Origin: a virus
Virus record (IMG/VR): IMGVR_UViG_3300044611_001052
Coordinates: 1 to 44,768 of that record
DNA: 44,768 nucleotides
Direction: 5' to 3' (one strand)
Positions 34,598 to 38,070 of the stretch are shown in pieces; the stretch's first letter is position 1; each line of letters opens with the position of its first letter. The notes beneath the pieces are model-generated. The model saw only the letters and a program-made list of their open reading frames with translations, did not search any database and was not told where the DNA came from. Made by a program: the position numbers and the translations under genes.

Positions 34598-35494
34598 TCA
34601 ATCTTCTTCGGCAAGCCGTTTGAAGAAATCGAGATCATCGTCGTCTTCATCGACCGTAGAAGCTGCAGCAGGTGCAGCAGCCGCCTTGAAGGTAGGCGCA
34701 GGAGCTTTATACTCCTCTTCATCACGATCAACTCCGCGAATCTTGGCAGGTTCCGCAGAAAGTGCCAAGACAGTGTTCAGACGAGTCTTAAGATCCTCAT
34801 AAGACTTGAATTGCTTTGCATCTACGAGCTCAGCGAGCGGATACTCTTGAGTGTAGACACGTTCAAGCTCACTGTCATCATCGAACAGTGGTGCGGGAGA
34901 GTCGAATTCTGACTTATCGTAATTAGGCCAACCTTCGACCTTACGAATTTTGAGCTTGAAATTAGCACCGTTCCAAAGATCGAAAGGATTTACTGGCTTC
35001 TCGTCCTCAAAACCTGGGTTCATGAGGTCGTTCAGCTTATCGAAGATCTTCTTTCCGTACTTGTACAGGAAGACCTTACCTTCGTTCGCAGGATTGCCTG
35101 GATCCTTCACAACATAGATGTTGCTGTGGTATGCCAAGCGGCGCTTCTGCTTGCGTGCGATCTCCTTATCAGAGTCAAGACCAGTGTTCCAAAGAACGCT
35201 GTTGTATTCTGACACGGGATCGTCTTTACCGAGAGTCGTAAGCGACTTCTCGATGTACCAAAGACCTGTTGGTCCTTGGAATCCATGGTCCCAGATGCGA
35301 GTGAAAGGAATGTCTTCGTTGGCTGGCGCGGGAAGGAAACGAATCACGGCGTATCCATTACCAGCTTTATCAACGGTAGGCTTCCAATACTTTCCCTCGT
35401 CGGGATCTGAATATGTGGTATTTTGTTTAGCAAGTTCTTTGGTGAGCTTCTCAAAAGAAGAGTTGGAAGAACGCTTAAGGTCTGCAAATGACAT
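34598..35494 (-). CDS. gp32: Single-stranded DNA-binding protein gp32, 298 aa
   Basis: A 298-residue protein (T4 301). The basic N-terminal helix MSFADLKRSSNSSFEKLTKE provides cooperativity, the core has KYWKPTVDKAGNGYAVIRFL, GLWYIEKSLTTLGKDDPVSE, YNSVLWN and NEGKVFLYKYGKKIFDKL, and the C-terminus is the acidic tail DEDDDDLDFFKRLAEED used to recruit replication proteins. Unlike T4 gp32 there is no Cys at all in the protein, so the Cys/His zinc site is absent, as in cyanophage relatives. It lies downstream of its loader partner gp59, behind a GATAAATA late-like box and a ribosome site (TAGGAGA) and in front of a strong terminator. Confidence 0.95.
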   Translation of the reverse strand: MSFADLKRSSNSSFEKLTKELAKQNTTYSDPDEGKYWKPTVDKAGNGYAVIRFLPAPANEDIPFTRIWDHGFQGPTGLWYIEKSLTTLGKDDPVSEYNSVLWNTGLDSDKEIARKQKRRLAYHSNIYVVKDPGNPANEGKVFLYKYGKKIFDKLNDLMNPGFEDEKPVNPFDLWNGANFKLKIRKVEGWPNYDKSEFDSPAPLFDDDSELERVYTQEYPLAELVDAKQFKSYEDLKTRLNTVLALSAEPAKIRGVDRDEEEYKAPAPTFKAAAAPAAASTVDEDDDDLDFFKRLAEED

Positions 35495-35553: not shown

Positions 35554-35561
35554 TATTTATC
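35554..35561 (-). promoter_or_regulatory. Possible late promoter variant before gp32 (GATAAATA)
   Basis: GATAAATA on the minus strand overlaps the gp59 stop codon and leaves a leader of about 60 bases to the gp32 ATG. One mismatch from the T4 late consensus. gp32 in T4 is read from middle and late promoters, so a late promoter here is plausible. Confidence 0.4.
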
Positions 35562-36135
35562 ATGAAGTAAAGGCAGCCTTGACAATTTTTCTACATTTAA
35601 ATGCATCATAATGAAAGAAAGGCTTATACTTCAGCAGCTTCTTGTGGATGCTGGGCCATAGGACACCATCCTCAATCTTCTTGTTCCAATGACCGAAGAA
35701 CCCGAAGATATCATTGAGGATAATCACCGTCTCGATAGAAATCTCTCGACGAAGATATTGTTTCAGTAAGAAGGGATGTTGCCCATTCTTTACAATAACA
35801 CAATCATTGAAATTTGTACATAGTTTTTTTACGTCTTCTTCGAAGATATAAGAAAGAGACTGCTGTCTCTTCAACCATTCATTGTACACTTTCTCTGAGT
35901 CATCACCGAACAGATCGCCTATCCATTTCAGATCGCCATCTACAAAGTTGGCAACCAGATATTTGAGTGGATCTTTATGTTTGGACAGCTTGTAGAACTG
36001 ATACTTGTCCTTACGTACATCAAAGCTCGAAGGCTTTGCGCCTATCTTGCCGTTGTATTTGATGTAGTCATAGCTGTCTGTTGTGAAGTGGTTTTTAAGG
36101 GCGAGGAAAGTGGTGTAGCTCTCGAATGGAGTCAT
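35560..36135 (-). CDS. gp59: DNA helicase loader gp59, 191 aa
   Basis: A 191-residue protein (T4 217). The motifs DSYDYIKYNGKIGAKPSSFD, VRKDKYQFYKLSK, VANFVDGDLKWIGDLFG-D and the central EDVKKLC--FNDC match gp59, which loads gp41 helicase onto gp32-coated fork DNA. The basic N-terminal half (R/K-DKYFF-KLS type) is the DNA-binding part in T4. It overlaps gp33 by four bases (ATGA) upstream and is followed by gp32, its binding partner; 33-59-32 is also the T4 gene order. Confidence 0.9.
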   Translation of the reverse strand: MTPFESYTTFLALKNHFTTDSYDYIKYNGKIGAKPSSFDVRKDKYQFYKLSKHKDPLKYLVANFVDGDLKWIGDLFGDDSEKVYNEWLKRQQSLSYIFEEDVKKLCTNFNDCVIVKNGQHPFLLKQYLRREISIETVIILNDIFGFFGHWNKKIEDGVLWPSIHKKLLKYKPFFHYDAFKCRKIVKAAFTS

Positions 36136-36377
36136 ACTGGTAGCTTAGCCCTCTTTGGCATGAAGTTGAGTTCTTCTGCTTCGTCTTGAAGCTTTGCCTT
36201 GATACGAATGTTACTACGAATGATACTCGCAGCAGCCTCGATCTCGATGTTATTCTTTTCACAATAGTGGACGACGGCATCCATATAATCTAAATCATAA
36301 TTAATAACCAGTCGTTCAATTTCTTTAATGAACTTTTCAGAAGTCAATGCTTTCGTTGAAATGACGTCGTCCACCAT
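36132..36377 (-). CDS. gp33: Late transcription co-activator gp33, about 81 aa
   Basis: The frame opens at 36386 with an ATG that overlaps the hydrolase stop (ATGA); a second ATG three codons later at 36377 has the AGAGG site at a better distance, so I use it. The protein reads KFIKEIERLVINYDLDYMDA, VVHYCEKNNIEIEAAASIIR and KAKLQDEAEELNFMPKR, the gp33 pattern of T4-like phages outside the T4 species. gp33 links host RNA polymerase carrying gp55 to the sliding clamp gp45, giving enhanced late transcription at TATAAATA promoters such as those in this window. T4 gp33 is 112 residues, so this is a short version. It is coupled to gp59 by a four-base overlap. Confidence 0.85.
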   Translation of the reverse strand: MVDDVISTKALTSEKFIKEIERLVINYDLDYMDAVVHYCEKNNIEIEAAASIIRSNIRIKAKLQDEAEELNFMPKRAKLPV

Positions 36378-36382
36378 AATAA

Positions 36383-36961
36383 TCATCCTCTATAAAAAAT
36401 GTGTGCACCAATCTTAGTCGTACGAGCAAACACTCTACCCCATGACGGACTTACGTAGTCAGCGTGGTAAAACTTTGCTCCCTTTGTTACGTCACCGTAA
36501 TTTCCGAGATACACATGTTCGGCGATTTCCTTTGATTTAGCAAAAGCTACACCATCACGAATTCTTTTTCCACCCTCACACTTCCATGAAAATTGGCATA
36601 CGCGCGCAGTTCTCTGATTGATAACTCCACATGGCGTGCTTGGGAAACGATCGTCTTTTGCGCGGTTCAAAACAACATTGTTTACCGCAATCCTACCTTT
36701 ATAAGGTTCATGGCCTGCTTCGAAGTATGTATTCTCGGCCATGCATTGGATTTGTTTTTTGTCGTAGTTGCTCAGATAGACTGGCTTCTTTACGACCTTT
36801 TCTTTTTCGATTACCTGAATGACTGGGACCTTTACGATCTTGACTTCAGGTTCTTTGTTTGGTGTAGCCAAAGCCACGCCTGTTACTGCAATGATACCTA
36901 TGACAAAGCCTTCGGCCCAGCGTAGATACGGGAAATCTTTTCTAGTTTCGAAAAGTTTCAT
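36383..36961 (-). CDS. SleB/CwlJ-type cell-wall hydrolase, probable endolysin with signal anchor, 192 aa
   Basis: A 192-residue protein. Residues about 15-34 (AEGFVIGIIAVTGVALATP) form a single N-terminal membrane segment, followed by a Val/Lys/Glu-rich linker. From residue 66 on is a SleB/Hydrolase_2 domain: CMAENTYFEAGHEPYKGRIA with candidate catalytic Glu76/Glu81, NNVVLNRAKDDRFPSTPCGV, VCQFSWKCEG, and IGAHIFYRG with His187 at the end. These enzymes cleave cortex or cell-wall glycan as lytic transglycosylases. The single weakly hydrophobic N-terminal helix suggests Sec export or a signal-anchor-release lysin, which would explain the absence of a recognisable holin here. A good ribosome site (AGAGGAAG) precedes the ATG. 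It is coupled to gp33. Confidence 0.8.
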   Translation of the reverse strand: MKLFETRKDFPYLRWAEGFVIGIIAVTGVALATPNKEPEVKIVKVPVIQVIEKEKVVKKPVYLSNYDKKQIQCMAENTYFEAGHEPYKGRIAVNNVVLNRAKDDRFPSTPCGVINQRTARVCQFSWKCEGGKRIRDGVAFAKSKEIAEHVYLGNYGDVTKGAKFYHADYVSPSWGRVFARTTKIGAHIFYRG

Positions 36962-36977
36962 GTTCTTCCTCTTAGTC

Positions 36978-37157
36978 TCAATGACTTTGGCAAACAGAGA
37001 CTACTTTACAGGCATCCCAGCCATATAGTTTTCTGCCGCTATAAGAAGATACACAAGAGAATAACGAAGTATCTTCCATCCATTTCCCTCTTACTGGAAA
37101 TGCAAAATCATTAGTGTTTTCGTCGGTGACATCCGAATGATGCCGCTTTCTAGCCAT
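36978..37157 (-). CDS. Possible small ORF between tmRNA and hydrolase, 59 aa
   Basis: An open frame of 59 codons (MARKRHHSDVTDENTNDFAF...) ends 17 bases before the hydrolase ATG. No convincing ribosome site precedes the first ATG; an internal ATG 26 codons later has AAGAGGG six bases upstream and would give 33 residues (MEDTSLFSCVSSYSGRKL...). Composition (several Cys, Ser, His) is not like its neighbours and I see no family. It may instead be non-coding leader: the stretch contains an 8-bp inverted repeat GAAGATAC/GTATCTTC. Weak call. Confidence 0.3.
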   Translation of the reverse strand: MARKRHHSDVTDENTNDFAFPVRGKWMEDTSLFSCVSSYSGRKLYGWDACKVVSVCQSH

Positions 37158-37215
37158 CTAAGACTTGAAGTTTTGCAAGAGTCAATGGAGGATTCTAACC
37201 TCCGTCGTGATATTT

Positions 37216-37223
37216 TATTTATA
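37216..37223 (-). promoter_or_regulatory. Late-promoter-like TATAAATA in the tmRNA 3' flank
   Basis: A perfect TATAAATA on the minus strand about 100 bases after the tag stop. It could drive late expression of the SleB-type hydrolase and gp33-gp59-gp32 with a leader of about 250 bases, or mark the AT-rich end of the tmRNA coding piece. Confidence 0.4.
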
Positions 37224-37450
37224 CTACCACCAGCGGTTTTTCTGGTGACTCGTAGCACCAGAGATTCAACTGGTAGCAAGTGGCCCGTTCTGTTCCAAGG
37301 TGGAGCCATACCCGTGTAGATCATGCCGCTAGGCGGATATCTGCAAAGCTATCGTTATCGTTAGCATTTATGTTTAGTGGCACTTTGCCAGGCAATCAGT
37401 CTCGAACCGCCCTATTACACGAAAATCGAATTCCAAGGTCACCCCCATCA

Positions 37451-37529
37451 TCTACTATGCAAACACGCTTCGGCTTCCTGGCATGTTCGGGATACGATTA
37501 TAACCGTATCCGGATTAATGCATAGTAGA
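37451..37529 (-). repeat. 11-bp inverted repeat bounding the tmRNA internal spacer
   Basis: TCTACTATGCA (37529-37519, directly after the CCA) and TGCATAGTAGA (37461-37451, four bases before the coding-piece 5' G) are perfect complements. With ACCA/TGAT between (three of four paired), they extend the 7-bp acceptor stem into a nearly continuous 22-bp helix in the precursor, which RNase processing must open to create the mature ends. Confidence 0.9.
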
Positions 37530-37589
37530 TGGTGGAGGTGCGGGGAGTCGAACCCCGGTCTTTCCGCCTTTATTGTTGATTGTCAACAA

Positions 37590-37635
37590 CTGATATACTA
37601 TATATACAATGTTTTTCTTTAATTGTACATGCTTA
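37590..37635 (-). promoter_or_regulatory. Promoter element upstream of the tmRNA (TGTACATG box plus -10)
   Basis: On the minus strand TAAGCATGTACA (37635-37624) overlaps the stop codon of the nuclease gene and is followed by an AT-rich segment with TATAGT (37602-37597) and TATATC (37597-37592). Four sister elements precede protein genes between 39.6 and 40.55 kb. Transcription starting near 37586 would give an acceptor piece of about 57 bases. Confidence 0.6.
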
Positions 37636-38070
37636 ATTGCACCAAGACTGTTTTGCATCTCCGAAATATGCTCGAGCAAAGCTGTTCTTAATAAGCAGAT
37701 CGCGAAGGCTCATGCCGTCAAGCAGAATGTCACCGAGTACACGGCCACCAAACTTGTCCCAATCATATAGAACAACCTGATGTTTCTTCGTACCAGCAAT
37801 TACATCTTTGACAAAAACAGAAGCTTGCTCTCCACGCTTCTTTTCGCTCTCGCACTTGGCACGAAAGCTTTTTTCTGGAGTATCAACACCAAAGATACGA
37901 ACGCCGAGTTCAGGCTTGAGCGGAGCTGGTAAGTATGGTGCCTCGATGACAATCGTATCTCCATCAATTGCTCGAACGATCTTTGCATCATAGGTTACAC
38001 CAACGGGTGTTTTCTGAGCAATTGCTGGAGTTGCTAGCATGACTAATGCTAGAGCGATAAAATTCTTCAT
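37633..38070 (-). CDS. Secreted thermonuclease (SNase family), 145 aa
   Basis: A 145-residue protein with a classical signal peptide (MKNFIALALVMLATPAIA, cleavage expected after residue 18). The mature part is a staphylococcal-nuclease fold: AIDGDTIVI (DGDT at 36-39), VRIFGVDTPE with Arg58, Asp63 and Glu66, and DKFGGRVLGDI with Arg110. The spacing of these residues equals that of Arg35/Asp40/Glu43/Arg87 of the staphylococcal enzyme, so it should be an active calcium-dependent nuclease of DNA and RNA. Cys73 and Cys144 could form a disulphide, fitting export to the periplasm. A role in degrading host, competing or exogenous DNA is inference. It follows a small secreted protein gene and its stop overlaps the tmRNA promoter element. 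Confidence 0.85.
   Translation of the reverse strand: MKNFIALALVMLATPAIAQKTPVGVTYDAKIVRAIDGDTIVIEAPYLPAPLKPELGVRIFGVDTPEKSFRAKCESEKKRGEQASVFVKDVIAGTKKHQVVLYDWDKFGGRVLGDILLDGMSLRDLLIKNSFARAYFGDAKQSWCN

Follow-up and report, generated by a model that had tools for sequence, protein, structure and literature searches.

The window, the whole stretch of 44,768 nucleotides analysed here, is a virus contig (IMG/VR record IMGVR_UViG_3300044611_001052) with T4-type genes, among them gp32, gp59, gp33, baseplate hub and wedge proteins, a tail tube cap, PhoH and T4 RNase H. The presence of the core T4-type genes (gp32, gp59, gp33, baseplate and tail proteins) places the contig among the T4-like phages. 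On the minus strand, a SNase-like nuclease gene is followed by a tmRNA gene, endolysin, gp33, gp59 and gp32, and this gene order was found again in many related contigs among the matches listed. The locus comprises the following features.

37633..38070, minus strand: staphylococcal-nuclease-like protein, upstream of the tmRNA
37624..37629, minus strand: -35-like hexamer TGTACA, separated from the -10 box by 17 bases
37599..37606, minus strand: -10 box TATATATA (in relatives mostly TATAAATA)
37530..37591, minus strand: acceptor piece of the tmRNA (T-arm, CACCTCC, A, CCA), from the start of the RF04321 match at 37591 and the letters; mature 5' end approximate
37447..37529, minus strand: intervening sequence (IVS) of 83 nt between CCA and G1, predicted to be absent from the mature two-piece RNA
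37519..37529, minus strand: 5' arm TCTACTATGCA of the 11-bp IVS terminal stem
37451..37461, minus strand: 3' arm TGCATAGTAGA of the IVS terminal stem, followed by the tail TGAT (37450-37447)
37230..37446, minus strand: coding piece of the tmRNA, from G1 (GGGGGTG) to the ARAGORN end, placed by ARAGORN, Rfam and the letters; 3' end approximate
37321..37365, minus strand: tag reading frame ANDNDSFADIRLAA with stop TGA, from ARAGORN and the letters
37216..37223, minus strand: TATAAATA box directly after the tmRNA and before the endolysin leader RNA
36962..37206, minus strand: conserved structured leader RNA of ~245 nt before the endolysin gene, ending at the endolysin start; not part of the tmRNA
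36383..36961, minus strand: endolysin, a cell wall hydrolase (Hydrolase_2)
36132..36386, minus strand: gp33, late promoter transcriptional regulator (PHROG phrog_254, E 1.4e-17)
35560..36135, minus strand: gp59, DNA helicase loader
34598..35494, minus strand: gp32, single-strand DNA-binding protein

A first-pass annotation made from the letters alone had read this locus as a permuted, two-piece tmRNA gene of a T4-like phage, with the acceptor piece before the coding piece on the minus strand, ends pairing over 7 bp and a tag frame closed by a stop, and had proposed ARAGORN and an alpha-type covariance model as checks. ARAGORN called a permuted tmRNA gene at 37230-37625 (-) with the tag ANDNDSFADIRLAA*. 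Two Rfam models matched above their cut-offs: RF04321 (tmRNA_permuted) at 37591-37321 (-) with 89.0 bits against a cut-off of 47 (E 6.5e-16), and RF01849 (alpha_tmRNA) at 37633-37279 (-) with 54.2 bits against a cut-off of 50. Both the programs and the letters give the same order of pieces. Reading from the letters, the T-arm CGGGG-TTCGACT-CCCCG lies at 37557-37541 (-), the acceptor strand CACCTCC + A + CCA at 37540-37530 (-) and the G1 stretch GGGGGTG at 37446-37440 (-). The two ends pair over 7 bp and CCA is present; the stem includes a G3-U70 wobble, the feature read by alanyl-tRNA synthetase (AlaRS). The predicted fold of 37190-37635 is 5.1 sd below dinucleotide shuffles. The outcome that the first-pass annotation had set as a refutation, a lack of any covariance-model hit, did not arise. 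All elements named in the first-pass annotation are present, far beyond chance, and that this is a real tmRNA gene is virtually certain.

Such a gene in a T4-like phage is already known and is not a novelty. According to the available sections of PMC9004378, the T4-like methylophage Melnitz encodes a two-piece tmRNA, 53 two-piece forms occur among 133 unique phage tmRNA structures (50 of the 53 from marine or aquatic samples), and an early use of phage tmRNA, from an early promoter, is postulated. The tmRNA gene of Melnitz lies immediately upstream of gp33 and gp59 in its record (MZ577097), and the permuted tmRNA of the pelagiphage Mosig (MT647606) likewise adjoins gp33. Both phages thus resemble the window in carrying a permuted tmRNA just upstream of gp33; Melnitz also shares the promoter layout and has an IVS of 142 nt with a 9-bp terminal stem and TGAT, and the IVS of Mosig has an 11-bp terminal stem, as in the window. 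They differ from the window in their tags, and in the window the endolysin and its leader RNA stand between the tmRNA and gp33. In the Melnitz record (L290, tmRNA 1252-1704), a small open frame in the 142-nt IVS runs into the coding piece.

The tmRNA gene is widely retained in relatives of the window. A search with the core of the endolysin leader RNA hit 97 viral stretches, 80 of them among the matches listed. Of the leader-bearing loci, 110 extend 1300 nt or more upstream, and ARAGORN called a tmRNA in 97 of these 110 (the counts are of loci, some sharing one contig). The other 13 loci come from nine records, all of which match RF04321, six of them above the cut-off; the remaining three have only sub-threshold tmRNA pieces, and direct reading of these revealed a long IVS. 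Because the tmRNA model matches all nine records, absence of the tmRNA from the 13 loci was ruled out.

The 141 permuted loci were reduced to 74 distinct genes, in which the acceptor stem was CACCTCC/GGGGGTG (69 genes), CGCCTCC/GGGGGCG (3) or CATCTCC/GGGGATG (2), always fully paired and with G3-U70. Two more stems, CAGGTCC/GGGCCTG and CGGGTCC/GGGCCCG, occur in the endonuclease-bearing genes described below, which brings the number of versions to five, each fully paired. The pairing script demanded full pairing, so this survey shows which stems occur; the script fitted 141 of 142 permuted loci called by ARAGORN, the exception being L004. This locus (L004 2944-3334, from the crAss-like phage cr130_1) has an annotated tmRNA that is permuted by ARAGORN and carries the unusual tag DNYNVVDYTHVA. 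ARAGORN also called permuted tmRNA genes that their records leave without annotation in Ruegeria phage RpAliso (L002 2864-3207) and in phiCbK-like Caulobacter phages (L003 2947-3386, L291-L296).

The tmRNA could be a passenger or a decaying copy of a host gene with no function in the phage, and the available sections of PMC9004378 do describe the acquisition of ssrA fragments by phages through imprecise excision. We consider this very improbable in view of the five acceptor-stem versions, each fully paired, the tag frame, which is open in the ARAGORN-called relatives, and the four endonuclease-bearing copies, which retain the tag frame and pass a tmRNA cut-off. A working phage gene is, on these sequence patterns, the likely reading, held with good confidence. 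SmpB was not detected in ten viral records, all of them possibly fragments and one (L107) from outside this group, and the phage tmRNA therefore presumably uses the SmpB of its host. Taken as a whole, the locus is best explained as a long-resident, probably working two-piece tmRNA gene of the phage, a reading to which we assign a probability of about three in four.

Capture of the gene from the host had also been suggested, and here the age of the event matters. A degenerate pattern for the tag ANDNDSFADI had no match in a collection of 84,980 species genomes, and a host donor with the same tag was rejected on this result. A scan of the species genomes with the acceptor piece gave a single match, an actinobacterial one-piece tmRNA, which was not a donor. 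Because the tag is without a match in these genomes and the place beside gp33, gp59 and gp32 is kept across a large phage group, the sequences do not suggest a recent capture. An older capture from an alphaproteobacterium is likely. The permuted tmRNAs of Alphaproteobacteria (RF01849, RF04321; available sections of PMC11915505) have the same order of pieces, a 7-bp acceptor stem with G3-U70 and an AANDN-type tag; the copy in the window differs in being phage-borne.

We surveyed the promoter region in 72 distinct genes with sufficient upstream sequence, which are related to each other, trying spacings of 15-19. A box ~66 nt before the acceptor strand reads TATAAATA in 40 and TATATATA in 23 of the 72. 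In 66, a distance of 17 bases separates the box from the best -35-like hexamer upstream of it, and this hexamer is TTGACA without a mismatch in 17 genes. The sequence is TGTACA-17-TATATATA in the window and TTGACA-17-TATAAATA in Melnitz. We take TATAAATA to be the T4 late-promoter box. It occurs seven times in the whole window against 2.3 expected, a number reached in none of 100 shuffles, and this excess fits T4-type late promoters. The layout looks as if it could be read both by the host polymerase and by the late phage machinery.

The course of events that these elements predict, and that we think quite likely, is as follows. The hybrid promoter (-35-like hexamer, 17 bases, T4-late-type box) would give a single precursor, from which host tRNA-processing enzymes would cut out the IVS. 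The product would be used by host AlaRS and SmpB, so that stalled ribosomes would be freed and a tag ending in LAA would be added for host proteases. The group offers numerous natural variants in a conserved context, with a promoter that can be recognised, which makes it possible to test whether ribosome rescue is run by the phages themselves; phage two-piece tmRNA is known, and we found no experimental study of it in the literature searched.

The IVSs of these genes are unlike in sequence and share one architecture, in which a terminal helix usually starts 0-1 nt past CCA and ends 4-5 nt before G1, with a tail that is usually TGAT or TTGAT. Among 34 family representatives, the terminal helix averages 10.4 bp, against 3.2 in shuffles. 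In a set of 44 genes (the 34 representatives, Mosig, phiCbK and RpAliso, four endonuclease-bearing genes and three genes missed by ARAGORN), 26 have a helix span of exactly 11 and 40 a span of 10-13; a stem of 11 bp, as in the window, is also found in phiCbK. Permuted tmRNA genes, unannotated in the stretches shown, were also seen on plasmid records of 1.6-2.2 Mb (L179, L180 and L181, from Paracoccus versutus and Pseudorhodobacter turbinis). Unlike the window, these bacterial copies, three large-plasmid genes from two genera (Paracoccus twice, Pseudorhodobacter once), have IVSs measuring only 22, 22 and 25 nt, and their terminal stems comprise 1, 1 and 4 bp.

Together, the terminal helix and the acceptor stem of the window span ~22 positions (7 acceptor, 4 and 11, with one C-A mismatch), which suggests a substrate for RNase III. 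The 23S rRNA IVSs, for example of Coxiella, are excised by RNase III without religation according to the available sections of PMC4990558. It is conceivable, if somewhat doubtful, that the terminal helix serves by this analogy as a length ruler for RNase III. According to the same sections, the 23S rRNA IVSs are also stem-closed inserts of sporadic occurrence, some with an ORF; they differ in lying in an rRNA helix instead of the gap of a permuted tmRNA, in having an S23p ORF where an HNH endonuclease is found here, and in that excision by RNase III has been shown there and is inferred here from helix length only. Of the features that define the 23S-rRNA-type IVS, the terminal inverted repeat is present (span 10-13 in 40 of 44) and the location in an rRNA helix is not. 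The phage IVS may therefore work like a 23S-rRNA-type IVS; because its site is a tmRNA gene, it is not a member of that class.

Other identities for the IVS were considered. At the gathering level, no Rfam family other than tmRNA overlapped the IVS in the loci scanned, and in the four endonuclease-bearing loci there was no Rfam match besides tmRNA even at the permissive level. A 12-base SAM-SAH match on the opposite strand of the window's IVS (E 5.6) and a P31 match over the tmRNA of L119 (E 2.9) were far below their cut-offs and were treated as chance. Intron models gave no match at E<=1 in the four endonuclease-bearing loci and none at E<=10 in the window region, and with no catalytic intron model matched, a group I or II intron was rejected. 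The group I introns of tmRNA genes (available sections of PMC11915505) are likewise mobile inserts, some with a homing endonuclease; they are self-splicing and lie in the T-loop of the intron form of the gene, whereas the IVS occupies the natural gap between CCA and G1. In the same sections, a tRNA gene is mentioned in one IVS and a repetitive element in another, and endonucleases are placed in the group I intron form. An origin of the IVS from a tRNA was rejected as well: T-arm-like ends occur in L027, L028 and L119, but Rfam found no tRNA in L028 and L119.

To compare IVSs with the genes that carry them, we used 70 distinct genes (the 74 without RpAliso, phiCbK, Mosig and L142), of which 66 had an IVS of at least 20 nt and gave 2145 pairs. 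The acceptor strand with the 60 nt preceding it, together with 175 nt counted from G1, served as the backbone, and the threshold for IVS identity was set at 80%, since 70% was too near the shuffled maximum of 0.68. IVS identity reached at least 80% in 24 of 331 pairs with backbone identity of at least 0.95, in 5 of 142 at 0.90-0.95, in 18 of 910 at 0.80-0.90, in 33 of 720 at 0.70-0.80 and in 2 of 42 at 0.50-0.70; these counts are not independent, as the sequences are related and were gathered partly by exact acceptor pattern. Because so few pairs share their IVS at any level of backbone identity, the IVS is, by this measure, nearly uncoupled from its gene.

Individual pairs illustrate this. 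The IVSs of L080 and L174 are 99% identical on backbones of 70% identity, and those of L046 and L137 are 98% identical on backbones of 74%. Among six pair alignments, the borders of exchange lie at or near CCA and G1 in these two pairs; L014 and L021 have longer shared flanks and differ in the tag part. Two or more tags accompany seven of the 34 IVS families, and one of the seven, the 122-nt IVS, has five; the family of the window's IVS (13 loci) was seen with no tag but that of the window. Eleven viral stretches contained the core of the 122-nt IVS, all 11 with a permuted tmRNA called by ARAGORN; a 70-nt IVS core was found in three stretches. Neither the 122-nt IVS nor that of the window (query 37449-37531, two bases off the final limits) had a match in the phages collection. 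IVS length ranges from 5 to 157 nt in the ARAGORN-called genes; to judge by the 5-nt alleles (four distinct genes, ten loci), the IVS is dispensable. Its exchange is not universal, since six phiCbK-like phage records have almost the same IVS. In the phage group of the window, the comparisons make it very likely that whole IVSs are swapped, from CCA to G1, and that the mature halves are left in place.

Most of these sequences are metagenomic contigs and the borders fall within conserved blocks, and the combinations of IVS and backbone could thus be assembly chimeras joined at the conserved acceptor and G1 stretches. Such chimeras are highly improbable, because the combinations recur across datasets: the 122-nt IVS with the tag ANDNDSFADIRLAA is found in five datasets, and the window's gene recurs in a further six contigs, which come from six datasets. 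The isolate Melnitz, with its 142-nt IVS, also has the same design.

Alternatively, the IVSs may act as small RNAs in their own right, phage-phage competition being one conceivable role, with selection maintaining their diversity and the tmRNA gene serving as no more than their carrier. Some cores are near-identical in distant backbones, the window's core is unusually well folded (z -3.58, or 3.6 sd below shuffles) and some IVSs contain small ORFs, such as those of L090 and L095, in which no family scored above its cut-off. However, the 31 IVS cores as a group show no excess of folding over shuffles (mean z -0.20), IVS alleles of 5 nt exist and no Rfam family but tmRNA fits. We regard functional small RNAs as unlikely.

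In four contigs (L056, L195, L077 and L222), the IVS is 471 or 505 nt long and contains an ORF with its own TATAAATA before it. The ORFs have 141 (L056), 156 (L195) and 152 (L077) codons. Compared with the ORF of L195, identity is 87% for that of L077 and 83% for that of L222. The two ORFs tested match PHROG homing endonucleases (L195, 1.9e-13; L056, 1.8e-11). The Pfam HNH model gave 25.1 bits for L195, against a cut-off of 21.4, and 19.3 bits, below the cut-off, for L056, and a PDB search retrieved HNH domains (best 1.1e-4). The ORF has relatives in T4-group phages, one of them annotated mobB; it shares with the Mob-type HNH homing endonucleases of these phages the HNH motif and the PHROG homing endonuclease assignment, and differs in sitting inside a tmRNA IVS. 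By homology, the IVS ORF is a relative of HNH homing endonucleases, and cleavage of IVS-less alleles is predicted.

The four genes keep the tags ANDNDSVVGIRLAA, ANDNTAYEGLALAA, ANDDNVGFALAA and ANDNTAYGDLALAA, each still scores above one or more tmRNA cut-offs when matched across the insert, and their IVSs have a terminal stem and tail like those of the short IVSs. None of the four contigs has the window's backbone. The strict regex search can miss endonuclease-bearing genes; in L056 and L222 the acceptor pieces escaped it and were read directly; five further pattern matches (L141, L169, L297, L298 and L300) were set aside as they lack a permuted tmRNA. A second endonuclease ORF lies directly after the tmRNA in L077 (PHROG 6.8e-15), and the stretch just after the tmRNA looks like a hot spot for such ORFs. 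By eye, homing-endonuclease-like ORFs were also seen between tmRNA and endolysin in L037 (HNH) and L058 (GIY-YIG-like).

The discarded IVS is possibly a niche for a mobile element, perhaps a homing one. Such an IVS would spread by cutting and repair of the tmRNA genes of other phages. Splicing and ligation would both be unnecessary for it, since the two-piece tmRNA lacks nothing once the IVS is gone, and the 11-bp terminal helix would keep the IVS removable. We put at only slightly short of even the chance that homing by the endonuclease is a main driver of IVS exchange and that the ORF-less IVSs are shrunken forms. A tentative further step is to see here a kind of mobile element undescribed in the literature searched, with full-length forms (~470-505 nt) bearing an HNH endonuclease and short forms that have lost it.

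Ordinary phage recombination could also move the IVS, with the T-arm/acceptor and G1 stretches as short blocks of homology and the endonuclease genes landing in a harmless spot. The borders of exchange do coincide with conserved blocks, the swap of the tag part between L014 and L021 points to mosaicism beyond the IVS, and the endonuclease was found in four contigs only. On the other hand, endonuclease ORFs also directly follow the tmRNA in L077 and L037, as if this spot attracts them, and the endonuclease-bearing IVSs share the terminal stem and tail of the short IVSs. Recombination by itself is a plausible account to which we give somewhat less than even odds.

What looks new is the exchange of the IVS as a unit and the presence of an endonuclease inside it, that is, a throw-away piece of tmRNA swapped among related phages, sometimes with a DNA-cutting gene typical of mobile DNA. 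In the open literature searched, we found no description of a homing or exchanged IVS in a permuted tmRNA, and IVS exchange is not among the topics discussed in the available sections of the Melnitz paper (PMC9004378). Should the IVS prove to be a homing element, mobile DNA would have a splicing-free safe house in permuted RNA genes, and homing endonucleases would have a further way to occupy a conserved gene, beside self-splicing introns and inteins.

The leader RNA between the tmRNA and the endolysin gene forms a separate element. A tRNA-like element after the 3' end of the tmRNA was rejected, being the start of this leader. No Rfam family fits the leader, the best overlapping matches lying far below the cut-off, and the phages collection gave a single 29-base match (E 0.9). 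The endolysin start lies 96-112 nt after the leader core in 141 of 144 loci, some of which share a contig, and the other three end at a contig edge. In 29 aligned of 50 distinct sequences, 12 of the 53 predicted pairs have changes on both sides with pairing kept, and the leader may, as a putative regulatory RNA, control or time lysis.
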